NCBI RefSeq assembly: GCF_014750655.1 | Contig: NZ_JABBXD010000006.1 | Span: forward strand, 124,001-188,000 | DNA: 64,000 nucleotides | Direction of reading: 5' to 3' | Source: Salinimonas profundi | Lineage (GTDB): Bacteria; Pseudomonadota; Gammaproteobacteria; Enterobacterales; Alteromonadaceae | Shown: piece after piece, positions 15,527 through 26,365 of the stretch | Numbering within the stretch: position 1 is the first letter of the stretch | How the letters are laid out: every line of letters starts with the position of its first letter | Position numbers and translations under genes: made by a program | Notes under the pieces: generated by a model | Seen by the model: only the letters and a program-made list of their open reading frames with translations | Told to the model about the DNA's origin: nothing | Databases searched by the model: none

Positions 15527-16213
15527 TTACTGTACGGCTGACGGCAATTTCTCTGACATCATTTTTTTGCACAGATGAATAAAACGGGTGTCCTCCTCAT
15601 ACCATTCATTTAATGCACAAACCCCCTCTTCTTCGATAGACTTATCCAGATTGGCCGGGTTTTTATGTGCTTCAACGCCATCTTTTGGCAACGCAATGCC
15701 CTCGGGAAGCGCTAACAAATCTTTTAGTTTGTCGAAGTCACTGTTCAACGATTCCTGAAACCCTATGAACAAAATATCATCGGCGCGGGAGTTAAAGTAA
15801 TCCAGGTCTACATACCAGTTATGGTAGTGACTAAAATGCTTTACGCTATCCATTGCCGCAACCGCTGAAGGCTGCTTTTGCGCAAGCGACATCGCCACAT
15901 CGTTGGGTGTCGCGTATTGCTCAAATACTTTTTTTTCTTTCGGACTCCACTCAGAATAGTACCTTGGCTGACCTTTTCGTTGTCGGCTGTAAAACCCGCT
16001 GACGAACCTGGAGACAGGATCTCTTAGAAATAAGATTACCGCCTCGCCTTTAGGGATATCTTTTAAAGATACACTGTGTCCATGCAGTTCGATTGAGTAT
16101 TCCGGTGTTTCCTGAAACTTCTTCAGCACGGATTTTATAGCGCTACCGCCGGTTTTTCCTACGTGTAAAAAATGAACTTTCTTTTTCTTATTTTTCCATA
16201 GAAATTGAAACAT
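15527..16213 (-). CDS. Sulfotransferase family protein
   Basis: A protein of about 228 residues. The start region HFLHVGKTGGSAIKSVLKKF is the 5'-phosphosulfate-binding loop of the sulfotransferase fold. VILFLRDPVSRFVSGFYSRQRK is the 3'-phosphate-binding arginine/serine region of PAPS-using enzymes. I use the ATG at 16213, preceded by GGGAG, rather than the upstream in-frame ATG at 16264, which adds 17 residues without homology. It stands alone between the PQQ dehydrogenase and a small membrane protein gene. The acceptor could be a surface polysaccharide or a small molecule; nothing nearby decides this. Confidence 0.85.
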   Translation of the reverse strand: MFQFLWKNKKKKVHFLHVGKTGGSAIKSVLKKFQETPEYSIELHGHSVSLKDIPKGEAVILFLRDPVSRFVSGFYSRQRKGQPRYYSEWSPKEKKVFEQYATPNDVAMSLAQKQPSAVAAMDSVKHFSHYHNWYVDLDYFNSRADDILFIGFQESLNSDFDKLKDLLALPEGIALPKDGVEAHKNPANLDKSIEEEGVCALNEWYEEDTRFIHLCKKMMSEKLPSAVQ

Positions 16214-16521
16214 ATCGTGCTCCCTGTGCCGTCCTGTGATGAATAACGCCGACTCGTTGATCAAGGAAATTATTCACCAGCAACTTGTATATTTTCTTTA
16301 CCGCATAAACAAAACGTAGCCGAATATTCTGTTGAGATCCACAAAGACAGGCCTAGGAGGGAGGAAAATGTTGAAAAAATGTTAATTTACGTAAAAACTT
16401 ATCGGAACAGCGTCTGACCGACATGACTGTGAGCAATGATATTTGTTGCATAACGGCATGATGTGAAACACAAACTGTATAGAATGCGTTCGTAGAGAGA
16501 CGCTGGGCGTCTAATCACAGA

Positions 16522-17173: not shown

Positions 17174-17283
17174 TTGTGTAAACCGAAAAACTTTAAAAAG
17201 GTATGTCGCTATTTTATGGGAGGTTTACATAGCAGCGAGTTCATCAATCGATACTTCAATATCAATGTTACTTCTAAGGGAAT

Positions 17284-17352
17284 CTGACTTCTTGCTCACC
17301 GCACAATTAGGAGCGCAGCGAGTAATTTTCCGAGTGCAGCAATTTGTTATGT
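17284..17352 (-). repeat. attC-like site, left end of array
   Basis: The right core GTTATGT is intact; the left core is degenerate (around CTGACTT). Inner arms TTGCT.../...AGCAA pair, and the GGAGCGCAGCGA segment resembles the sites at 22630 and 25057. The stop codon of the adjacent cassette ORF lies inside the right core. The damaged outer core fits a terminal, no longer recombining site. Confidence 0.6.
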
Positions 17353-17907
17353 ACTTCTGCTGGATAGCCCTGGAAACTCTGCTGCGGCCACCAAGGCAGT
17401 AAACTCGCGTTCGAACTCATAGTCTCCCACATATGCCTGGGCAATCGCACCCAACCACGTAATCCTGAATTGCATGGAGTTGCCAATCCGCTCAAACCTG
17501 ATCCGGTGCTTACCGACCGCATCATGACCAAGCAGATAAATATGAAATGCAAGATCGTCCCAGTCCTTTAGGGTTTCGGGGGTCGGATCGACTACTACCT
17601 CAAGACCGTTCAGAAAATCGGGTGTGTATTCGGCGACGGTGCACACCCTAAATCCGCCTTTGTGCCAATAATTGGAAGACAGTGTGCATGAGTGATAATT
17701 ACCCCAGACAATCGGCGCCGCCCAGTCAGATGGATAGTCGACATCCTCATCAACTTCTATATCGCGTTCCGCATAGTAATCAGCTGACTCAAGATGCAGA
17801 TCGAACCACACATCTTCACCCACCACTTTCGCCGACCATGAGAACGCCTTGATTGGATGCCCTTCTGGCCAAGGATTGTCCTTGAAGTAAATTCTGTCAG
17901 ATTCCAT
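17347..17907 (-). CDS. Cassette-encoded hypothetical protein (186 aa)
   Basis: I do not recognise this protein. It is soluble, acidic and rich in aromatic residues (WSAKVVGEDVWFDLHLESADYY; EVDEDVDYPSDWAAPIVWGNYHS). No signal peptide or membrane segment is visible. The pattern suggests a compact beta-rich protein, as often seen among immunity-like or structural cassette products, but no function can be assigned. It is bracketed by attC-like sites at 17924-17986 upstream and 17284-17352 downstream, and its stop codon falls in the latter. Confidence 0.75.
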   Translation of the reverse strand: MESDRIYFKDNPWPEGHPIKAFSWSAKVVGEDVWFDLHLESADYYAERDIEVDEDVDYPSDWAAPIVWGNYHSCTLSSNYWHKGGFRVCTVAEYTPDFLNGLEVVVDPTPETLKDWDDLAFHIYLLGHDAVGKHRIRFERIGNSMQFRITWLGAIAQAYVGDYEFEREFTALVAAAEFPGLSSRST

Positions 17908-17923
17908 GTGCCAACCCTATTAA

Positions 17924-17986
17924 TGCATTACGCCCGCGTAAAGCGCGCGACGTAGAGGAACGTTGTTTTTGCCGCGCTTGTTAGCT
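17924..17986 (-). repeat. attC site
   Basis: A 63-base imperfect palindrome runs from GCATTAC to GTTAGCT on the plus strand, with inner arms GCCCGCG and CGCGC pairing. The left core has GTAATGC on the minus strand where GTTATGC is expected, a single-base departure. Confidence 0.7.
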
Positions 17987-17993
17987 GCCGGAC

Positions 17994-18263
17994 TCAAGCA
18001 AACTGCCTGATGAGACTGTTATATAGACTATTATCCTTTTTCAACGCAACATAATTGTCATGCGATATTTGCCGGACTATGAATTTGGATGCGAAGTGAC
18101 CGATGTCGAATTCGATAAAGCACCTGTGATCCTTATCCTTGTAAATTAACCAGTAATCTCCGTAAAAGTAATCCAAATGATTTGCGTGCTTCTTCCATCT
18201 AGCTTCGGCCACCAGTTCATCTGTAGGATATACACCTTTTTCATTATGTATGAACTTACTCAT
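17994..18263 (-). CDS. Cassette-encoded hypothetical protein (89 aa)
   Basis: A small soluble protein that I do not recognise. It is rich in aromatic and charged residues (HANHLDYFYGDYWLIYKDKDHRC) and has no membrane segment. The ATG at 18263 is preceded by a GGAG-like sequence (GTCGGAGATTTCG), which supports translation. Its 3' end lies a few bases from the attC core at 17980-17986, so this is a normal single-gene cassette. Confidence 0.7.
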   Translation of the reverse strand: MSKFIHNEKGVYPTDELVAEARWKKHANHLDYFYGDYWLIYKDKDHRCFIEFDIGHFASKFIVRQISHDNYVALKKDNSLYNSLIRQFA

Positions 18264-18283
18264 CGAAATCTCCGACTCAAGGA

Positions 18284-18342
18284 AGCTAACATTTAAATGA
18301 TGCAGACCCTGAGAACCGCATATTAATTTTTATGTCTTGCTA
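18284..18342 (-). repeat. Degenerate attC-like site
   Basis: The left core AGCTAAC is good and the arms ACATTTAAATGATGC and GCATATTAATTTTTATGT pair imperfectly. The right core is poor (around CTTGCTAC instead of GTTRRRY). Position between two cassette ORFs supports the call; sequence alone would not. Confidence 0.45.
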
Positions 18343-18350
18343 CCGGTACT

Positions 18351-18794
18351 TTACTCAAGAGTCAACTCGCTATTACCAATAATCGGCTTACGATAATAAT
18401 ACCAATTGGCGGAGCGTGACCAGTGATGCTTTTTCTCATTGCATACCCCCCAGATACATCCAACCGTTTCAGTTGTGCTCGCCATAAATTTTTCGTCAGC
18501 AGCTTTCAGACGTTGTTTGTAAGGCGCTGTAAATTGAGATGGTGCTTGACCAGTAAATACATGAATAAGATGCCGACCATCAATATCATTCAAATAATCA
18601 TCTATGGTCATTTGATAACCTTTAGAAACATGGGCGACAACCTTAACCCAGCCGAAGACTAAGCCCTCAAGATCACCTTGTACGACATGCTTCGCACATC
18701 CAATTTTATATAAAGTTTTTTGGGTATCAGAGTTCATAGACATAACTGTCCCAGCGCGCCAAGCGCACGTTTTAATTTTTTCGTTATAACTCAT
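18351..18794 (-). CDS. Cassette-encoded hypothetical protein, second gene of a two-gene cassette
   Basis: A 147-residue soluble protein, unrecognised. It has four cysteines (CAWRAG, IGCAKH, VGCIWGVC) and a tryptophan/tyrosine-rich C-terminus (HHWSRSANWYYYRKP). Its start overlaps the stop of the upstream ORF at 18791-19348 by 4 bases (ATGA), so the two are translationally coupled and likely work together. No attC lies between them, so they travel as one cassette. A start at the internal Met-18 or Met-20 is possible. Confidence 0.68.
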   Translation of the reverse strand: MSYNEKIKTCAWRAGTVMSMNSDTQKTLYKIGCAKHVVQGDLEGLVFGWVKVVAHVSKGYQMTIDDYLNDIDGRHLIHVFTGQAPSQFTAPYKQRLKAADEKFMASTTETVGCIWGVCNEKKHHWSRSANWYYYRKPIIGNSELTLE

Positions 18795-19348
18795 TCCCGC
18801 TTCCAGATTTCGAGGTTAGCACTATTTGCTATGGCAAAATAATCCCCACACCAAGAAAATCCATATGCTTCAATAAAATCAGTTAGAAGCTTGATACAAT
18901 TTTTTTGAAATTTCTCTATTAATGGGTTTCCCTCGGGACCACAGAAGTACAAACTATGTTGAGGCCAATTCGGTGAGCAAAGCCTTAACGTTTCTCCAAG
19001 ACATGTGCTATTCGGAAGTCCACCACCGTTTGGCCCTGCAATAAGAATTTTTTCTCCGGCAATCTCACCTATTCCTTCGCAAAAAATGCCAGAATCATCA
19101 ACTCCTTTGAACTCCTCGTAGTCACGATCAATTTTCTCTGCAGAATCACAGTTGACGAGTGCTCTTCCAGAAGTAGAGACGACCAGAATTAAGTTGGTTT
19201 TACTTCTAGCGAAGCCAAAGCCAATAAATCCGCTGATCGCTATTTCACCTATCCGCTCCCATCCATCAGGGCTAGCCGCGAATGGAATATTAGCTAGAAG
19301 TTCAATGAGCCTATTTCTGTTTTCAATAAGACATTCTGACATATTCAT
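18791..19348 (-). CDS. Cassette-encoded hypothetical protein, first gene of a two-gene cassette
   Basis: A 185-residue soluble protein, unrecognised. A notable segment is GEIAGEKILIAGPNGGGLPNSTCLGE, which superficially resembles a phosphate-binding loop but lacks the GKS/T ending, so I do not call it a nucleotide-binding protein. Six cysteines are spread through the chain. The ORF starts at 19348, with a second Met two codons later. It is coupled by an ATGA overlap to the downstream ORF. Coupled pairs in cassettes are often toxin-antitoxin or effector-immunity pairs; here that is speculation. Confidence 0.68.
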   Translation of the reverse strand: MNMSECLIENRNRLIELLANIPFAASPDGWERIGEIAISGFIGFGFARSKTNLILVVSTSGRALVNCDSAEKIDRDYEEFKGVDDSGIFCEGIGEIAGEKILIAGPNGGGLPNSTCLGETLRLCSPNWPQHSLYFCGPEGNPLIEKFQKNCIKLLTDFIEAYGFSWCGDYFAIANSANLEIWKRE

Positions 19349-19349
19349 G

Positions 19350-19455
19350 GGTTATATCGCCCGGCTAGGGCGCCGGAAAGGAGATGCTTTTTTTGTGCGG
19401 GCGTAGCGAAAAAGCACAAAACGAGCAACGCAGTGTAGGTCGGCTTGTGCCATAT
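19350..19455 (-). repeat. Degenerate attC-like site with strong central hairpin
   Basis: The left arm TATATCGCCCGGCTAGGGC parallels the arm of the site at 25057, but TATAACA has become TATATCG. The right end CGGCTTGTGCC parallels CGGTTTGTTATGC. The central part holds a hairpin with arms around TTTTTTTGTGC and GCACAAAA. Both cores are damaged, so the site is probably inactive. Confidence 0.5.
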
Positions 19456-19456
19456 T

Positions 19457-19879
19457 TTACAAGGCATTTACAGCGGCCTCTATTTGTTCTTTGCGCAATG
19501 CCTCGTATTTTCCAAGCACTTCGTAAAAAGATTTTTTCCGAACGAACGGGAATTGTAGATAATAATGATTAGAGAAGCCATTGATATGGGCTTTATCTCT
19601 ACCGAATATAGCTTGCTCTTCACTCTACTCATTATTCGCGCCACGTAATGTTGTTTTATAAACACTTATAGATTGATCTTTGATATCTAAGATATATGTG
19701 CCGAATGCACCTTTAAGGCATAAATAACGACTACATTTCGATTGTTCAATGCATTTCAAATAATCTGTATGGCCAATGAAAATAGGTACATCTTTAAATA
19801 TATCAAAGTCGCCAAAATTTGTTTTGATAGAAATGCCATAAGCGTCACAACCCATTCGAATTTCTCCGAGAGGATTCAA
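19457..19879 (-). pseudogene. Cassette ORF interrupted by an in-frame TAG
   Basis: The first open part (19625-19879, TTG or unknown start) encodes 84 residues beginning near NPLGEIRMGCDAYGISIKTN and ending RGANNE before TAG. The same frame continues without another stop for 55 codons (SEEQAIFGRDKAHING... to ...KEQIEAAVNAL, stop at about 19457), ending just before the next attC-like site. The downstream part has normal protein-like composition (FVRKKSFYEVLGKYEALRKEQIEAAV). This is what a nonsense mutation in a ~140-codon gene looks like; stop-codon readthrough is an alternative. The frame also extends upstream of 19879 as far as the attC core (RHKIIHHEAVLENIEL) without an ATG, so the true start is unclear. 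Function unrecognised. Confidence 0.66.
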
Positions 19880-19929
19880 TTCAATATTTTCTAATACAGC
19901 TTCATGATGAATTATCTTATGCCTTGTAT

Positions 19930-20019
19930 TGCCAACCTAAGAGGTGGAAACGTGTGCGCGAAAATGGCAAAGCCGCGCACATGTTTATGTCCAAATGCGG
20001 CTTAAGCGCCTTGTTAGGT
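19930..20019 (-). repeat. attC site
   Basis: A 90-base site with right core GTTAGGT and left core TGCCAAC. The arms CCTAAG/CTTAAG and the central arms CGTGTGCGCG and CGCGCAC pair. It separates two cassette ORFs. Confidence 0.75.
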
Positions 20020-20026
20020 ATCGCGC

Positions 20027-20269
20027 TCACCAAAACTTCCACCTAGATTTTGGTTTGCGCCATTCACCTGACCAAAGTTCATAGTGCTCCAGCTTAGCGA
20101 GCTGTTCGAAGATAGCGTACTCACCAAGAGTATCAACGACTTTTGTTGGAATGGACACTCCAAATAAACCATTATCGAGGGGGAACACCTCAATTTGTGA
20201 AAAGGTCGCGCCCAAGGCTAATTCGATACTCTCAAAATTCGTAGTTTTTACGATTGCTTGGATTCCCAT
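20027..20269 (-). CDS. Cassette-encoded hypothetical protein, second of a coupled pair
   Basis: An 80-residue soluble protein ending in a basic, tryptophan-rich tail (ELWSGEWRKPKSRWKFW). It is not a family I recognise. The start overlaps the stop of the upstream ORF (TGATG), so the pair is translationally coupled within one cassette. The small size and coupling fit a toxin-antitoxin or regulator pair, but no motif confirms this. Confidence 0.66.
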   Translation of the reverse strand: MGIQAIVKTTNFESIELALGATFSQIEVFPLDNGLFGVSIPTKVVDTLGEYAIFEQLAKLEHYELWSGEWRKPKSRWKFW

Positions 20270-20529
20270 CAGCTTTTAAATTCCAGAGCACAGGCATGGC
20301 TGAGAGCTTCGCGAATTTGACTGATCACACTTTCTGATACCACTTGCCCCCGTATGTCATAGATGAGACGGCACCTTTGTAAGTGTGCTGGCAGTTGTGA
20401 GACTCCAAATTCGATGCGGGCACGATTGTAAGCAATGCTTAGCTCTATTGCTTCAGCATTCTCAAGACTGTGATTAGCGACAAGTGTGTACTCGCCTCGC
20501 TCTTCACTGACAAATTCAGGTGTAAACAT
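20269..20529 (-). CDS. Cassette-encoded hypothetical protein, first of a coupled pair
   Basis: An 86-residue soluble protein, unrecognised. The first half appears beta-rich (GEYTLVANHSLENAEAIELSIAY) and the C-terminal part helical (SESVISQIREALSHACALEF). It is followed directly by the 80-residue ORF with a stop/start overlap. Upstream lies an abnormally short attC-like element at 20538-20565. Confidence 0.66.
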   Translation of the reverse strand: MFTPEFVSEERGEYTLVANHSLENAEAIELSIAYNRARIEFGVSQLPAHLQRCRLIYDIRGQVVSESVISQIREALSHACALEFKS

Positions 20530-20537
20530 AGTTTAGT

Positions 20538-20565
20538 ACCTAACGCCTGCCGTCACTTGTTATAA
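20538..20565 (-). repeat. Collapsed attC: two core sites only 14 bases apart
   Basis: ACCTAAC and GTTATAA are both present as facing cores, but they lie only 14 bases apart (28 bases overall). Normal attC sites are at least about 55-60 bases. The central stem needed for single-strand folding is missing, so it is probably a deletion derivative that fused two cassettes into one unit. Confidence 0.6.
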
Positions 20566-20871
20566 TCCGGGGGGCCAGGTGCATTGAATCTTGTTTTCTC
20601 TAAGATAATTGCTGGCTAGATCATTCCGGCCAACAATGTACTCAACACGACCATCCTTTATACCAACAGCCGGAATGCTGAATAGATGCTTTCCGGCGCA
20701 ATAAACATCGATGATTCTATGAGTTCCAGTGAACTGAAGAAAATTAGCCTCTCCAATTTCCCTAGCCAGCTCCCAGACCATTGCCTTCTCAGGAATGTCT
20801 ATTTCGATAGAAAGAGGGCCAGCCTGGTCATCTTGAGAACAGCAGGCCTCACGAATAACTTCAATTGTCAT
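20560..20871 (-). CDS. Cassette-encoded hypothetical protein (103 aa)
   Basis: A soluble protein I do not recognise. It shows an alternating pattern (TIEVIREACCSQ, LSIEIDIPEKAMVWELAREIGEANF, HLFSIPAVGIKDGRVEYIVG), suggesting a small alpha/beta fold. It has a CC pair at residues 10-11. The ATG at 20871 follows GGAGCTTAT-like sequence in the promoter-proximal side on the minus strand (AAGCTCCT), giving only a weak ribosome binding site. Its stop codon TAA falls inside the collapsed attC, as is common for cassettes. Confidence 0.68.
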   Translation of the reverse strand: MTIEVIREACCSQDDQAGPLSIEIDIPEKAMVWELAREIGEANFLQFTGTHRIIDVYCAGKHLFSIPAVGIKDGRVEYIVGRNDLASNYLRENKIQCTWPPGL

Positions 20872-20884
20872 AGGAGCTTATAAA

Positions 20885-20982
20885 GCTAAGCTGAGGGGCG
20901 CGAATGTGCGGCGAAAACGGCGAAGCCGCCGTGCGCTTGCGTCCCAGCGAACGAAGTGAGCGACTTGAGCGTTTTATTAGGT
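20885..20982 (-). repeat. attC-like site, both cores mutated
   Basis: The left core reads AGCTAAG (AAC expected) and the right core ATTAGGT (GTTAGGT expected). The arms CTGAG/CTTGAG and the central hairpin CGGCG...CGCCG are preserved. Folding is likely intact, but recombination activity is doubtful. Confidence 0.62.
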
Positions 20983-21004
20983 GCATGCCTGTGACTCTCA
21001 TATA

Positions 21005-21190
21005 TCATTGTTCCAACCTCAAAATAACTTCGTAGGCGTCTTGCTCTGAAACCTTAGCTTTTTGCATTTGCTCATGTGATATTTCTTTTTCAATTGATGA
21101 GGCTCCAGCGGATTGACCACTGTCAAACCGGATAAAAAAACGGCCTTCTCGTTCAAGAATTTCACACCCATAATTTGAGAAGATTTTCAT
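21005..21190 (-). CDS. Cassette-encoded hypothetical protein (61 aa)
   Basis: A small soluble protein. The first half is a likely beta-hairpin (GCEILEREGRFFIRFDSG) and the second half is helical and charged (EKEISHEQMQKAKVSEQDAYEVILRLEQ). The arrangement resembles small immunity-like or regulatory cassette proteins, but I cannot name a family. It is flanked by attC-like sites on both sides. Confidence 0.68.
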   Translation of the reverse strand: MKIFSNYGCEILEREGRFFIRFDSGQSAGASSIEKEISHEQMQKAKVSEQDAYEVILRLEQ

Positions 21191-21201
21191 ATCCCAAGCG
21201 T

Positions 21202-21312
21202 ACCTAACGCCAAGCTAAGGGTCGCGAATGCGTGGCTATTATGCCGAAGCCGCCGCGCGTTTGCATCCCAGCGATTGCCGAAGGTAATTGCGATTTAAGT
21301 GCCTTATTAGAG
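21202..21312 (-). repeat. attC site
   Basis: A 111-base site with left core ACCTAAC and right core ATTAGAG (one base off GTTRRRY). Arms GCCAAGCTAA and TTTAAGTGCC pair imperfectly. The stop of the upstream cassette ORF lies in the right core. Confidence 0.7.
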
Positions 21313-21852
21313 TGCAAGCGCACTGTTGACAACATTTTCATATTCGGTGGCAGTAAACTTGAAGGGGCCGATCTCCTTGATTGGTTGTGGTTCTTCGTAC
21401 CCATTCTCATATGCAAATTGACTCCAAATATACTCTTGGCCCACCTTGGAAATTTTGCATCCATAAGCACCACAACCTATATCAGCGCACTCTGGACAAA
21501 CATAAATAAGACTTCTACCAGATTCAGTTTCAGGCGGTTGCTGAAGTAAAAGCTGTTTTAAACTGTGCTTATTCAGTTTATCCCAGCCTTTTGCGAAGCA
21601 ACCCATAAAATCGCGGTGGCCGTCAGCCTTAGTTACTAAAGTTGTCAGTAGGGATTGTCCTTCAATAGTGAAGTCAGAAGAATAACATTCATGGATACCC
21701 TTACTCTCTTTTCGATGAAGAATATTAAATCCTAATTGTTTCATATTTAAATCTACTTCTGTTACTTCACCACAGGAAGAACATACGTAATATTCAACTT
21801 TATCAATAACAGCCGAATCTCTAAGTGATTCTCCGCAATTTCTACATTTCAT
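21307..21852 (-). CDS. Cassette-encoded zinc-ribbon protein, unknown function
   Basis: About 181 residues with two cysteine-rich regions. The first is an N-terminal ribbon: CRNCGE and, 15 residues later, CSSCGE, a four-cysteine zinc site. The second, YVCPECADIGCGAYGC, is followed by WSQFAYENGYEEPQP. The pattern C-EC-D-GCG----K----W-FAYEN recurs in uncharacterised bacterial proteins that I associate with immunity-like families, though I cannot name one with confidence. No enzymatic motif is visible. I place the start at ATG 21852 (GTG at 21855 is equally in frame). Flanked by attC sites. Confidence 0.72.
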   Translation of the reverse strand: MKCRNCGESLRDSAVIDKVEYYVCSSCGEVTEVDLNMKQLGFNILHRKESKGIHECYSSDFTIEGQSLLTTLVTKADGHRDFMGCFAKGWDKLNKHSLKQLLLQQPPETESGRSLIYVCPECADIGCGAYGCKISKVGQEYIWSQFAYENGYEEPQPIKEIGPFKFTATEYENVVNSALAL

Positions 21853-21859
21853 CACTGCA

Positions 21860-21970
21860 CCCTAACTTTAAGCTAAAGGACAAAAACACAATTCTACAAT
21901 CGCGGCGCAGCATTGTGTTTTTGTCCTAGCAACCCGCCCTGCAGGTTGCGTTTAAAGCATATTGTTAGTG
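21860..21970 (-). repeat. attC site with two stems
   Basis: A 111-base site with left core CCCTAAC and right core GTTAGTG. A long perfect stem, AGGACAAAAACACAAT with its complement, forms the centre. A second hairpin (GCAACCC...) lies beside it. Outer arms TTTAAGC/GTTTAAA also pair. The C-terminal codons of the upstream ORF run into the site. Confidence 0.8.
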
Positions 21971-22227
21971 GGAGTCACAGGTTTATAAAACGATGAGCTG
22001 TTAGTCCAAAATTTATCGTGTATATCTACTTTTTTCTGAAGTAATGAATCAAGGCGTTCATCATCAAACCCCACTTCACTTACTATTTCTGCTTCGATTT
22101 TTCCAATTTCGTAAAGTTCATTGTAGTAGCGATGAATAACACCGCAAACAGCGGCCTCAACGTTATCGTAAAACTCTGGTAGATTTCGGATCCTGTCTAC
22201 CAGAATCAATGCTTCGTTTATTTTCAT
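21952..22227 (-). CDS. Cassette-encoded hypothetical protein (about 91 aa)
   Basis: A soluble, mainly helical acidic protein (INEALILVDRIRNLPEFYDNVEAAVCGVIHRYYNELYEIGKIEAEIVSE). I choose the ATG at 22227 because GAGGGAGCT stands directly before it; an in-frame start at 22242 adds five residues. The last residues (TPTNNML) are encoded within the attC site, so they may vary if the cassette is moved. Family not recognised. Confidence 0.7.
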   Translation of the reverse strand: MKINEALILVDRIRNLPEFYDNVEAAVCGVIHRYYNELYEIGKIEAEIVSEVGFDDERLDSLLQKKVDIHDKFWTNSSSFYKPVTPTNNML

Positions 22228-22233
22228 AGCTCC

Positions 22234-22323
22234 CTCTAACACCCCGCTAAACGGCGAGCGGTAGCGAGTTCGGTAGAAGCCACGCTTTGTGTGGCTGGAA
22301 CGAATTTAAGCGGCTTGTTATGA
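22234..22323 (-). repeat. attC site (Vibrio-repeat-like)
   Basis: A 90-base site with left core CTCTAAC and right core GTTATGA. Outer arms ACCCCGCTAAA and TTTAAGCGGCTT pair well. Central stem GCCACGC/GTGTGGC is present. One of the clearest sites in the array. Confidence 0.85.
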
Positions 22324-22605
22324 GTTTTGGTTAAGTTCAATACGGGCCTCCTGCCATTGCTCCCAAGCATACTCTGGGTTTAGGTCTGGATACCCTCGTG
22401 ATTCTTCCATTTTATCTCGTGCTGAGATTGGCAACATCATACATACAGCATTATCGCGAATCTCAAGCACTTCACTTTCAGTTAATGGCGAACCTTTTTC
22501 TCGCTCTTTGTTTAAGAGAATCGCTAGCAAAGCTGGGGTAGGAGTCGGCACTAATTCCTCTTCGGGTTCTTCGAGTTTTCTTTTCTTGAATAGATCTTTA
22601 AACAT
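22318..22605 (-). CDS. Cassette-encoded hypothetical protein (about 95 aa)
   Basis: A charged soluble protein. A basic N-terminus (MFKDLFKKRKL) is followed by an acidic/proline linker (EEPEEELVPTPTP) and helical segments (LAILLNKEREKGSPLTESEVLEIRDNAV, PEYAWEQWQEARIEL). I prefer the ATG at 22605, preceded by AAGG, over the ATG at 22626, which lies beside the attC core and would be separated from the gene on recombination. No family recognised. Confidence 0.68.
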   Translation of the reverse strand: MFKDLFKKRKLEEPEEELVPTPTPALLAILLNKEREKGSPLTESEVLEIRDNAVCMMLPISARDKMEESRGYPDLNPEYAWEQWQEARIELNQNS

Positions 22606-22629
22606 CCGATGTACCTTATGACTCATAAC

Positions 22630-22694
22630 GCCTAACTCACCGGAAATTTGGGAGCGAAGCGAGCAAAGTTTCCGAGTGCAGTGACTTGTTATAC
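22630..22694 (-). repeat. attC site, classic 65-base form
   Basis: GCCTAAC and GTTATAC are the two cores. Arms TCACCGGAAA and TTTCCGAGTGCAGTGA pair with a few unpaired bases, as needed for recognition of the folded bottom strand. Length is 65 bases. It shares GGAGCGAAGCGA with the site at 25057. Confidence 0.87.
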
Positions 22695-22707
22695 GGTTTT
22701 ACACCAA

Positions 22708-25017
22708 TCATGCAACAACCTCGAGCATTTCGTTGTAATGAATGTCATCAACTTCCTGAATCCATGTAAATATATCACCAATGACATTTTGGCTTTCACC
22801 TAATAAGTTTTCTGATGAATCCTCATTGATTTCAATCACAGCGCTATGAGAATATTTATTTATGAAGCGATAAATCTTTTCTTTGGTTGCTTCATCTGTG
22901 ATTTTACAACCGTTCAAGCCACAACTCATTAGCTGTGCAATATCACTTCGGTACTTTGGAAACTTGAAGCTAAAAAATGATTCAAGTAATTTCCTTGCAA
23001 GATTCGCTGTTAAAAAAGCTTCGTCACGTGAAAGTGACGGATTGTCTTTGTAGAAATTAAGCTTTGAAAATATATAATGGTATTCTGAATTGTATCTAAC
23101 CAGAGTAGAGTCAGCGTCTTTAAATGTTGATTGGCGTGGAACGACTGTTGACGCTTCAATTGTATAAAAGAACGCATTGGGTTCTTTAGGTGGATTCTTT
23201 CTCCTTATATTACGGTTTACACCTTCGAACCAATCACGTATCAATTTGAAGTAAGTAAAGTTGTGCGTAAATACGAATAGCTGTTTCGCCTTGTCACAAT
23301 TGCTACGAAGAAACGAATACGCATGAAACAAGTGGTTCGAGTCAAAGCTTGAAACAGGATCATCGACAACAACTATAGTATTTTCCATCTTGTTATCGTT
23401 TTCTTTTAGTTTGGTCACAAAATAAACAAATGCAATAGCGGTTTTTTCACCTTCACTCAAGTTTCCTTCTGCCGGAACGGAATCGTTCCGCAATATCTCA
23501 TACCCTTTTTTAACCGGATTGAAACGAAGAGTTAATTCACTTCGTCCAAGAAATTTATGAAGTGATTCATTGAACTGGTCAGCGCCCAGACCTTCATTTG
23601 ATAGTGAATCTTCAAGTGTGCGAATCTCTGTGTTTCTTGAGTCAATTTTTGTTTTTAGTGTTTGATTTGCGGCTATTCGATCAACCACTTCTTTTTTCTT
23701 GTCGTGATAACCGAATGACTTTACTTCAGTGGTTGAATAGTGAAGTTCAAGCTGCCTTTTAGCTTTGTCAGTTTCTTCTTTAAAATTCCCTGACTTGTGA
23801 TTGTGCTTGTCAATAGCTGCACCAATAGCGGTCATGGCATCATTGAACGCCTTCACAGATGATTCACTGATAACTTCAATCGTTAGACCAGTCTTAAGTG
23901 GATTAGCTGTCTTAGCCTTTAATACAGTGTGCCAAACAGTTATTTCTTCGTTCAGGTCTGTAATCGCTTTTTCCAACGTGGTACATGCTTCGCTGTAGCG
24001 CTTTTTGAATTCGTCATAAAAATCACTTACGGAAGGTAGCATTGGGGGTTGAATATATTGGCTGGAAAGCCAGCCATCAGCACTTTGAAGCCGGGTTTGA
24101 AAGGCTTTGTAGTCGTCATTAAAGTGGGCTTCAAGCTGTTTGGTACGTTCTTCGGTTATGGTGTTGCCACAAAATTCACACTGATTTGTATCGTGGCGCT
24201 TATGAAGATCAAGACCAATTTCAATCCAAGACTTTATATCACTATGATCGACAAGTCGCTGAATAGTTTGGCTGACAACGCTAGTTTTCAACAGATCATC
24301 AAGACGTTCTTTAGCTTTGTTGAAAGTTTCTTGGTTAATGGAATGTTTATTAAAGGTAATCGGTGACTTTTGATCAGGCTTGGCCGCATTGGTCAATTCA
24401 ACAATTTTTTGATCATCAAGAAGCGGGGTATCTGACTTGCTTGCTTCAAGGTTGTCGGTAATAAATTTTTCAAATTTCCGTTTGTCGTAATTAAGATAGT
24501 AGCGGTCTGTAGTATCAATTGACTGAAGGCTGCTTTTCATGTGCCGTGCGCTATCAGTTCCAAACTTTGAAATAGCACCTTCGAGTTTTCTTATTTTCTC
24601 AGCTTCTTTGCTGTGTGCTGTAGTATCCGCTTCCTGTTCTTTTTTTAGCTTTTCTAATTTTTCACGCTCTTCAATTTTTTCTTTATCGACAAGCAATATG
24701 CTTTTTACGACACTATCCCATGAAATGTTTTCGTCAATAAAATCATGGTTGAAGGTATATATATTCAGATCAGCATTTCCCACGTTCGCTTGTGTGATAA
24801 GCGTTCCGTTGTCTATGCTTACCGAGAATTGCGAAGAAGGAAATTTACTTGAAGTGGATTTATTTTCGATACACCTAAACAACCCCGAAAGCGTAGACTT
24901 ACCGCTCCCGTTCCAACCATAAAACAGGTTGTACTTCCCAAAATCTTTAGCATAGGCGTTTGTGTGATCCTGATAGATACCGAACTGTTTTAGTTTTTGT
25001 ATGCTTTTTATTGACAT
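22708..25017 (-). CDS. RloC-like ABC ATPase with zinc-hook and putative anticodon-nuclease domain (defence candidate)
   Basis: A 769-residue AAA_13-type SMC/ABC ATPase. Walker A is GWNGSGKST (residues 34-42), the ABC signature LSEGE (520-524), Walker B VVVDDPVSSFD (549-559), and the H-loop FTHN (about 585). Between them are long coiled-coil arms with CEFCGN (C280, C283), a CXXC zinc hook as in Rad50 and RloC. After the ATPase the C-terminal part contains ARKLLES (R675, E679) and NKYSH (H724), an R-xxx-E...H arrangement like the catalytic triad of PrrC/RloC anticodon nucleases. RloC cleaves tRNA and is thought to act as a phage-exclusion ribonuclease. Length is close to known RloC. It is a single 2.3-kb cassette ORF between attC sites. 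ATPase type is sure; nuclease activity is inferred. Confidence 0.82.
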   Translation of the reverse strand: MSIKSIQKLKQFGIYQDHTNAYAKDFGKYNLFYGWNGSGKSTLSGLFRCIENKSTSSKFPSSQFSVSIDNGTLITQANVGNADLNIYTFNHDFIDENISWDSVVKSILLVDKEKIEEREKLEKLKKEQEADTTAHSKEAEKIRKLEGAISKFGTDSARHMKSSLQSIDTTDRYYLNYDKRKFEKFITDNLEASKSDTPLLDDQKIVELTNAAKPDQKSPITFNKHSINQETFNKAKERLDDLLKTSVVSQTIQRLVDHSDIKSWIEIGLDLHKRHDTNQCEFCGNTITEERTKQLEAHFNDDYKAFQTRLQSADGWLSSQYIQPPMLPSVSDFYDEFKKRYSEACTTLEKAITDLNEEITVWHTVLKAKTANPLKTGLTIEVISESSVKAFNDAMTAIGAAIDKHNHKSGNFKEETDKAKRQLELHYSTTEVKSFGYHDKKKEVVDRIAANQTLKTKIDSRNTEIRTLEDSLSNEGLGADQFNESLHKFLGRSELTLRFNPVKKGYEILRNDSVPAEGNLSEGEKTAIAFVYFVTKLKENDNKMENTIVVVDDPVSSFDSNHLFHAYSFLRSNCDKAKQLFVFTHNFTYFKLIRDWFEGVNRNIRRKNPPKEPNAFFYTIEASTVVPRQSTFKDADSTLVRYNSEYHYIFSKLNFYKDNPSLSRDEAFLTANLARKLLESFFSFKFPKYRSDIAQLMSCGLNGCKITDEATKEKIYRFINKYSHSAVIEINEDSSENLLGESQNVIGDIFTWIQEVDDIHYNEMLEVVA

Positions 25018-25056
25018 AACATCCTTGCTCTAAAAGTCACGCGGTGTTCAATTGGC

Positions 25057-25171
25057 GTATAACACCCCGCTTAGGGGCAATAACACGTGGGCTAAAATTT
25101 GGAGCGAAGCGACTGAGCCCACGTGTTATTGTCCCAGGGAGCTTGCGACCGACTACAGCGGTTTGTTATGC
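25057..25171 (-). repeat. attC site (longest in the array)
   Basis: A 115-base site with cores GTATAAC and GTTATGC. Arms ACCCCGCT and AGCGGTTT pair, and the centre holds a near-perfect stem (CAATAACACGTGGGCT with its complement). It shares GGAGCGAAGCGA with the site at 22630. Confidence 0.85.
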
Positions 25172-25172
25172 G

Positions 25173-25691
25173 TTAACGCCGATGATACAAAATACCAAGT
25201 GAACCACGAATCCAGACTTCCTTGAACTCTGAACCAACTTCAAATGTATTGAAGTGCGCTTTTGATACATCCAGTTTCACCGGCTCATTTGAGTTCGGAA
25301 GTGAAACGTACACGTAGTAACTCATACCGCCTTTTGTACTTTTATATGTATCAAGTTCGACGACAGTACCTTTTAGATAAACTTCATCTTGGCTACCCAC
25401 ATAAGCATTAAAGAACAAAACATAGCCGCCACTAAACAGTAATAGTAAAGCTGCAACCATTGAAGTCCATGCAATACCTTTAAATTTTCCAGCTTTACGT
25501 CGAAATCTTGGTAGCTTATAAAAATAAACGTAGAAAGATATGCCAAAGATTGGAATAGACAGATATTTAAAGGCCCAGTGATAAGGCGCATTCAAAACCG
25601 TGTCAAATAGAAAGTTGGGTACTATGGCAACAATTGCTACAAGAATAAAAAGCCAGTCTCCATACTTTTTTAGATAAAACTCCAAGGTCAC
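25173..25691 (-). CDS. Cassette-encoded membrane protein, unknown function
   Basis: About 172 residues: three membrane segments (WLFILVAIVAIVPNFLF, YLSIPIFGISFYVYFY, WTSMVAALLLLFSGGYVLFF) and a C-terminal soluble domain of beta character (EVYLKGTVVELDTYKSTKGGMSYYVYVSL...). The frame reaches an ATG at 25709, but that ATG lies on the upstream side of the core crossover point, so it would not travel with the cassette. An AAAGGAG sequence favours GTG at 25691 or TTG at 25685. First cassette of the array. Function unknown. Confidence 0.68.
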   Translation of the reverse strand: MTLEFYLKKYGDWLFILVAIVAIVPNFLFDTVLNAPYHWAFKYLSIPIFGISFYVYFYKLPRFRRKAGKFKGIAWTSMVAALLLLFSGGYVLFFNAYVGSQDEVYLKGTVVELDTYKSTKGGMSYYVYVSLPNSNEPVKLDVSKAHFNTFEVGSEFKEVWIRGSLGILYHRR

Positions 25692-25700
25692 TCCTTTGAC

Positions 25701-25707
25701 GCATAAC
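25701..25707 (-). other. Isolated integron core site (attI-like or cassette junction)
   Basis: GTTATGC on the minus strand matches the crossover core G|TTRRRY and lies at the upstream end of the first cassette, with no attC-like stem upstream. That is the position of an attI site in a complete integron, but no integrase gene follows within 450 bases or anywhere in the window. Confidence 0.55.
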
Positions 25708-25709
25708 AT

Positions 25710-26151
25710 ATTAATAGATCCCCAAATAATGTGATTCCCAGCCCCACTTTGGGATATTTACTTTTATTCTTTCTCAAAGATTACGCGATAAGCCGTTCTG
25801 ATAAAAGTGAAAAGACAAAGTGGTGTATTTCACGCTACTCATCAAATACAACAAAACGCCTATCCAATAGAGATGGTAGTTTTTGCGCATAAGCGTAATG
25901 GCAGATACAAATAAAATTTATATTCTTGGTCGGATTTCGGCGTCTATCAGCAGATTGATGAAAATTTGAATTGGCGTGGAATACAGAAGAAAACAGAACG
26001 GCTTAAGCGAAGCAGAGTCGGATGAATATTAAGCTGGGGAAAATGAGCGATGTGCGTTAAACCATGCATAGACAACATACCGCCAGCACCATACTGACTA
26101 AACGAACGCATAAACAAAAAAGGCCTCGCATTTCTGCAAGGCCTTCAATGA
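25710..26151. other. AT-rich spacer between cassette array and tRNA-Phe
   Basis: About 440 bases without a convincing gene. A short plus-strand frame (about 25915-26031, YSWSDFGVYQQIDENLNWRG... to KRSRVG) has no start codon and no recognised family; it could be a gene remnant. I searched both strands for integrase motifs (HxLRHS, LGH) and saw none. A promoter for the first cassette presumably lies here. Confidence 0.5.
26120..26145 (-). terminator. Rho-independent terminator of tRNA-Phe
   Basis: On the minus strand AAGGCCT-type arms (7 bp) with a 12-base loop are followed by a T-rich run. It lies directly downstream of the tRNA 3' end and should stop tRNA transcription before the cassette array. 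Confidence 0.75.
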
Positions 26152-26227
26152 TGGTGCCCAGAGGCGGAATCGAACCACCGACACGAGGATTTTCAATCCA
26201 CTGCTCTACCGACTGAGCTATCTGGGC
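26152..26227 (-). tRNA. tRNA-Phe (anticodon GAA)
   Basis: A 76-base tRNA with the CCA end encoded. The acceptor stem GCCCAGA/TCTGGGC, D-arm GCTC...GAGC, anticodon stem-loop with GGATTGAAAATCC (anticodon GAA) and T-arm GGTTCGATTCC are all present and paired. It is the first conserved gene to the right of the cassette array. No second copy of its 3' end is visible in the left flank, so there is no sign that it served as an island attachment site here. Confidence 0.97.
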
Positions 26228-26365
26228 AAAACTGGTTAGCGTTTTGGCGTTAACTGCCTCTCTCGCTGTGGGTGCGTATTAAACGGATTTCCGCGTTCCA
26301 AGTCAACACCTTTTTTGAAAACTTTGTCTGTTTGCACAGACTTTGCACAAAATAGGCTTTTTTGC

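Follow-up and report, generated by a model that had tools for sequence, protein, structure and literature searches.

A predicted RloC-family ATPase-nuclease carried as a 2.4-kb, probably mobile integron cassette

We find that the window, by which we mean the whole 64,000-nucleotide stretch of DNA analysed here, probably carries an integron cassette of 2.4 kb that is likely to be mobile still and encodes a protein of the RloC family, predicted to sense DNA breaks and cut tRNAs and so to act as an abortive anti-phage system. The cassette anatomy at both ends, the relatives in unrelated hosts, the RloC hallmarks and the two-module build of the protein are read from the sequence. DNA-end sensing, tRNA cleavage and phage defence are predicted for the window protein: its Rad50-like, zinc-hooked ATPase half would sense DNA breaks and set off the cutting of tRNA anticodon loops by its HEPN-like C-terminal half, and this cutting would stop translation in infected or damaged cells, an abortive-type anti-phage response.

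The gene is an ORF on the minus strand (22708-25017) that encodes 769 aa from an ATG start without internal stop. Its product matched the Pfam family AAA_13 (PF13166) over residues 11-750 (E=1.2e-164) and was the sole AAA_13 match found in its own genome; it also matched the PADLOC profile PDC-S06 (E=2e-175), which we take to be a candidate defence system. A preliminary description of this DNA had called the protein RloC-like, and the profile searches bore this out. The motifs on which that description relied were all located, on the minus strand: Walker A (GWNGSGKS, residues 34-41, 24895-24918; motif and conservation), the zinc hook CEFC (residues 280-283, 24169-24180), the ABC signature LSEGE (residues 520-524, 23446-23460; sequence motif and alignment) and Walker B (DDP, residues 552-554, 23356-23364). 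The predicted catalytic triad consists of R675 (22993-22995), E679 (22981-22983) and H724 (22846-22848), arranged as R675-X3-E679-X44-H724 with S723 preceding the histidine, and H585 is also present.

In an alignment of 107 homologs that are 27-92% identical to the window protein, G39, K40, both hook cysteines (C280 and C283), D552, D553 and the whole DDP, H585, R675 and H724 were invariant, and position 679 was Glu in 106 rows and Asp in one. Where both E and H are present (106 rows), they were separated by 44 residues in 60 rows and by 38-41 in the other 46. In a second alignment of 44 rows, composed of diverse AAA_13 proteins of other genomes down to 21% identity, C280, C283, R675 and E679 were invariant and H724 nearly so (>=90%), the exceptions perhaps being caused by misalignment. 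Passages of PMC2610378 describe RloC as an ABC ATPase of 658-897 aa split by a CX2C zinc-hook insert, with a triad R-X3-E-X36-52-H in which Ser often precedes His, and report that mutating any triad residue of Geobacillus kaustophilus RloC abolished activity. At 769 aa, with ABC ATPase motifs, a CX2C hook and a spacing of 44, the window protein lies within each of these ranges, and its RloC membership rests on this published motif definition together with the AAA_13 profile. The long E-to-H spacing remarked on in the preliminary description is indeed longer than in PrrC, but it is nothing odd for RloC, given the X36-52 range in the same passages. The analysis supports the earlier reading of the gene as an integron cassette for a zinc-hook ATPase that resembles RloC and has the ACNase triad.

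The cassette itself had been described as attC-bounded and 2.3 kb long. Its boundaries were supported, with attC sites recognised on both sides by a covariance model and identity between hosts falling at the core, but the size is 2,434 bp, counted from the first T of the 5' core and ending with the G in the core of the cassette's own attC (22629-25062, minus strand). The model was built from eight attC sequences, those of the window and seven other hosts, which were picked by hand and aligned with MAFFT; they follow the usual attC plan, and in 12 of 23 pairs both partners vary. Paired cells made up 91.8%; shuffles gave 75.9% (sd 1.9), and sliding the partners by 1-3 columns gave 29-45%. None of 500 shuffles reached any of five covariation measures, a result that is helped by the structure having been predicted from this very alignment. 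Within the window the model gave four matches at E<=1, all in the array and all on the minus strand; in other loci it gave 28, seven of them training sequences, all in cassette orientation.

The cassette's own attC (22622-22698, minus strand), with R''/R' stem, unpaired spacer, L''/L' stem and extrahelical bases, scored 91 bits (E 9.9e-25) as part of the training set. From outside that set, the attC of the upstream cassette (25056-25175, minus strand), with an R' core GTTATACG that bounds the RloC cassette on its 5' side, scored 27.8 bits (E 3.3e-5), and a site near the far end of the array (17281-17356, minus strand) scored 50.9 bits (E 2.7e-12). A further site, at the junction of cassettes 21952-22242 and 22318-22626 (22233-22327, minus strand), matched at E 0.0079 and shares 89% identity with one on contig C13. 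Upstream matches stopped 39 nt short of the start codon, both in the window (E as above) and in loci L014 (E 1.2e-7) and L021 (E 0.012), with weak matches at this position in L011 (E 0.11), L018 (E 0.9) and L010 (E 0.91).

Other approaches to the sites were tried and set aside. A strict pattern scan (RYYYAAC...GTTRRRY) returned nothing and then one irrelevant pair. Two home-made stem scans were not clear of shuffles, the first giving 6 matches in the window where 20 shuffles gave 0-5 and the second 3 in the 8-kb array (mean 1.1, maximum 4 in 50 shuffles) with 6 elsewhere in the window, and they were therefore replaced by the covariance model. The upstream attC has a fold energy z of -5.9; folded alone, the RloC attC has an ordinary energy (z -0.7 and -1.2 on the two strands), so energy was not used as evidence for it. 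At gathering thresholds Rfam reported only a tRNA in the window.

The flanks of related loci point to the same boundaries. By eye we compared 19 upstream and 18 downstream flanks, and the 18 loci counted on both sides comprise the window, 16 of 21 loci (L019, L020, L026, L027 and L028 being set aside as truncated or with an unclear start) and the plasmid locus L064. Among these 18, the core GTTATACG, allowing at most one mismatch, stood 46 nt (once 49 nt) before the ATG in 12 and was absent in L016 and L023; a clear R'' lay within 30 nt of the stop in 10, and both elements were present in 8. Mean ungapped identity across 18 upstream flanks (including L028 and omitting L024, which has a 3-nt shift) was 0.59 in the leader (25018-25062, minus strand) and 0.71 in the core, and the 40-nt blocks preceding the core each had 0.24-0.28, so that on average the leader is conserved between hosts up to the attC core and not beyond. 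R'' paired with the cassette's own 5' end at 8 of 8 positions in the window and 6-8 of 8 in seven other hosts, and with the next core at 6 of 8 in the window and 3-6 of 8 in the others; a better match to the own 5' end than to the next core is the mark of insertion from a circle. The RloC gene thus shows attC stems, spacer and extrahelical bases, a circle signature and homology that on average ends at the core, as an integron cassette does.

Hosts of related loci include Spongiibacter, Marinomonas, Colwellia, Brachymonas, Shewanella, Simiduia and Methylophaga. The Shewanella putrefaciens plasmid pSA70-2 (L064), typed as conjugative, carries an RloC of the B type defined below with an attC match behind it (E 2.1e-10) and a decayed 5' core. 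On this plasmid the RloC and its attC are directly followed by a Thoeris TIR gene that resembles ThsB (PADLOC E 2e-122), which places two candidate defence genes side by side (L064:6001-9094). More distantly, the RloC-like gene of plasmid NZ_CP029142 is 51% identical in a full-length match with the same motifs, and two plasmid relatives at 51% identity (L065 and L066) had, by eye, no such core or R'' in their flanks. The family is sporadic: among 60 relatives, the window's own genome and four others matched, those four at 25-28% identity.

This distribution bears on what the protein is for. The abstract of PMC3874168 reports that DNA-break inducers activate the RloC of Acinetobacter baylyi, whose targets are tRNA-Glu and tRNA-Gln, which it disrupts, and a passage of PMC12447246 calls the function of RloC unknown and finds that it correlates with susceptibility, contrary to a defence role. 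Both are consistent with a gene that is a brake under genotoxic stress, or a toxin that stabilises the array, instead of a phage defence; we consider this unlikely but worth taking seriously. The sporadic spread argues against it, as does a defence-like setting elsewhere, namely the ThsB-like gene beside one copy and an AbiV gene (HEPN family; PF18728 E 9.6e-26, PADLOC E 1.7e-9) between attC matches in the array of sister genome G277 (L111:16608-17336). In the window array, however, PADLOC matched none of the 10 other ORFs, and a role for these as known defence genes is unsupported.

The array that contains the cassette (17241-25701, minus strand) sits at a fixed locus near a tRNA-Phe. Of 30 congeners compared at mutY, G277 is the closest (95% identical), and between the borders it shares with the window (17240 and 25702 there) lies a different array of 7.2 kb: BLASTN of the window array against this insert gave only 48-121 nt matches, and tblastn of 12 window array ORFs against the G277 array matched none of the 12. 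The content of the locus therefore changes between sister genomes, with other cassettes in G277 at the same borders. The tRNA-Phe beside the array may be an island hot spot. In G277 (its C1:292415-302294), an insert of roughly 10 kb, which has weak integrase matches at 296905-297384, is flanked by a partial duplication of tRNA-Phe. A sulfotransferase-like gene (15527-16264; PF03567, E 1.3e-8) lies just beyond the left border of the window array.

One full copy of IntI above the curated cut-off was found in the genome, on contig C4 with its own array, and we infer that this intact integrase, encoded elsewhere, would mobilise the cassette. The upstream attC (25055-25173 in this comparison) shares 80% identity over 110 nt with one site of the IntI array, and the window site at 19345-19470 is 86% identical over 92 nt to a site there; in the four stretches of the genome compared, from the IntI array and contigs C1, C2 and C13, the RloC cassette's own attC had no match outside the window. 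Away from IntI, further matches to the attC model lie at C1:27014-29094, C2:387185 and C13:3026-4589. The C13 array includes a 388-aa ORF (L095:4984-6150) that is presumably a transposase, and it holds a second copy (L095:4586-4888) of the cassette adjoining RloC (22318-22626), 90% identical over 101 aa and with an attC 89% identical.

It is rather unlikely that the cassette is a fossil, immobile in an array without an adjacent integrase gene and with its own gene unexpressed. The sole IntI above the cut-off does lie on another contig, the ends of the cassette are decayed in several other hosts, and promoter-like sites in 22500-26300 numbered 5 against 9.1 expected, none of them in the leader on the coding strand. 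Against this stand an intact ORF with all predicted catalytic residues, an R'' that pairs perfectly with the cassette's own 5' core, attC types common to the IntI array and the window array, and the other cassettes that G277 holds between the same borders.

We turn to the predicted structure of the protein, whose N-terminal part models as a Rad50/SMC-like ATPase with long helices flanking the zinc hook, the hook region itself having low pLDDT (53-60). Residues 643-767 (22717-23091, minus strand) form a predicted HEPN-like nuclease domain, on suggestive evidence from the model and structural matches, and these matches were to generic HEPN toxins, with none to an ACNase. The resemblance of the C-terminal part to HEPN RNases is thus suggestive. 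A Foldseek search with the C-terminal piece gave no significant match, its first row being an unrelated helical protein, and the full-length structure-match list (VIA) covers residues 1-650 only and is uninformative on a C-terminal ACNase. A search of PDB for sequence relatives of the full protein found none, and with a profile the matches were weak ones only, to AriA, ABC proteins and coiled coils.

These results leave some room for a HEPN RNase that is governed by a Rad50-like ATPase and RloC-like in build only, with a natural target other than the anticodon loop, such as mRNA or another RNA; HEPN domains include mRNA-cutting and RNA-processing enzymes, according to passages of PMC3710099. 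We regard such a target as improbable, since the RloC spacing and triad are kept, the zinc hook is invariant in the large alignment, and mutation of the triad abolishes ACNase activity in the family member described in PMC2610378.

Comparison of the window protein with its 119 nearest relatives, together the best 120 of 722 matches, revealed two types. A-types number 81 of these 120 with the window included, and the other 80 are 0.73-0.92 identical to the window in the N-terminal part, here called the chassis, and 0.77-0.94 in the C-terminal part (C-part). The 39 B-types, defined by a length of 762-763 aa, are the same 39 rows that have a C-part identity of 0.50-0.53 to the window, with a chassis identity of 0.84-0.88. 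Residues diagnostic for A or B number none in 1-540 and 49 from 555 on, and the difference begins in residues 541-555 (23353-23397, minus strand), as both diagnostic residues and DNA identity profiles indicate: in seven B loci, DNA identity to the window was 0.79-0.80 at nt 1450-1650 of the gene and 0.53-0.59 at nt 1750-2150, and in 11 other A loci it stayed at 0.79-0.84. R675, E679 and H724 were invariant in 19 aligned C-parts of both types. B-types occur in isolates (L014, L015 and L018) and on a complete plasmid, so metagenome chimeras are no explanation.

Trees were made with FastTree and quick IQ-TREE runs. On the chassis tree (126 rows) the B type needs 8 type changes, at least 5 of them forced by well-supported branches. 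Making B a single clade in a 44-row subset, which combines 3 outgroup rows with the 20 A rows closest to B and with alternate B rows and one more, costs 190 log units and was rejected (p-AU 0.0004), in a test that does not allow for the groups having been named after the identities were seen. Diagnostic residues, DNA profiles, trees and the AU test together point to several exchanges of the modules as the most likely history and place the break in the conserved stretch between signature and Walker B. That the split instead reflects accelerated C-terminal divergence in one lineage is very improbable: B does form one clade in the C-part tree, but the forced changes on the chassis tree, the rejection of a single B clade in that subset of groups named post hoc and the absence of diagnostic residues before 541 speak against it, as does an outgroup clade that is nearer the window than B in the C-part (mostly 0.56-0.64 versus 0.50-0.53) and far more distant in the chassis (0.45-0.50 versus 0.84-0.88). 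Repeated module exchange may alter the tRNA target or help the protein to escape phage counter-measures. One further protein, P0013, combines a B-like chassis (0.95 to a B-type) with a C-part that is 0.77-0.80 identical to two A-types and 0.57 to a B-type, and possibly represents a further C-terminal subtype; additional C-types may exist beyond the best 120 of the 722 matches.

The window protein resembles the RloCs of G. kaustophilus (Davidov and Kaufmann 2008) and A. baylyi (Klaiman et al. 2013) in size, in its ABC ATPase with a CX2C insert, in R-X3-E-X36-52-H and in the Ser before His; unlike those RloCs, its gene is an attC-bounded cassette, its close relatives carry two exchanged C-terminal modules, and its activity is a prediction. 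With PrrC it shares an ABC ATPase and a C-terminal R-X3-E...H, as described in passages of PMC2610378. PrrC, however, is about half as long (341-416 aa in the same passages, against 769 aa), lacks the zinc-hook insert, has a shorter E-to-H spacing (R320/E324/H356) and is linked to a type I R-M enzyme; Pfam found no R-M domain in the 10 proteins scanned here. As in the integron-borne defence cassettes of Vibrio and mobile integrons (via passages of PMC12409362), a defence-type gene lies between attC sites in an array that serves as a reservoir, but the cassette defence systems reviewed there are streamlined and small, unlike this 2.4-kb cassette with one 769-aa predicted ATPase-nuclease.

Defence cassettes in integrons are established (passages of PMC12409362, which cites Darracq 2025, Kieffer 2025 and Getz 2025 for them, and of PMC12444791 and PMC13064858). 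RloC has been reported in CASTs (a passage of PMC12452197) and in an ICE (a passage of PMC13231603), and a passage of PMC3710099 describes a different HEPN integron cassette protein (PDB 3jrt). In the titles and abstract openings searched, with the three 2025 papers just named covered through the review PMC12409362, we found no description of an RloC cassette or of nuclease-module exchange. RloC and defence cassettes are therefore already known, and an RloC cassette with exchanged nuclease modules appears to be new relative to the papers searched.

Integron arrays have newly been recognised as reservoirs of defence genes and are thought to favour small ones (passages of PMC12409362). A 2.4-kb cassette with a whole predicted ATPase-nuclease suggests that large one-protein systems also travel in this form, and a locus with other cassettes in a sister genome offers a setting for following how an array changes when no integrase lies next to it. 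We tentatively propose, at somewhat less than even confidence, that RloC is a mobile plug-in defence cassette in which a conserved damage-sensing chassis has its tRNA-cutting head repeatedly replaced at the Walker B segment, so that cassette pools would swap nuclease specificity faster than phages adapt their tRNA counter-measures. Repeated exchange of heads on a constant chassis amounts to a natural experiment: as the fixed A/B differences start only at residue 555, comparing natural A- and B-types could separate what the head decides (tRNA target and phage range) from what the chassis decides (the trigger).
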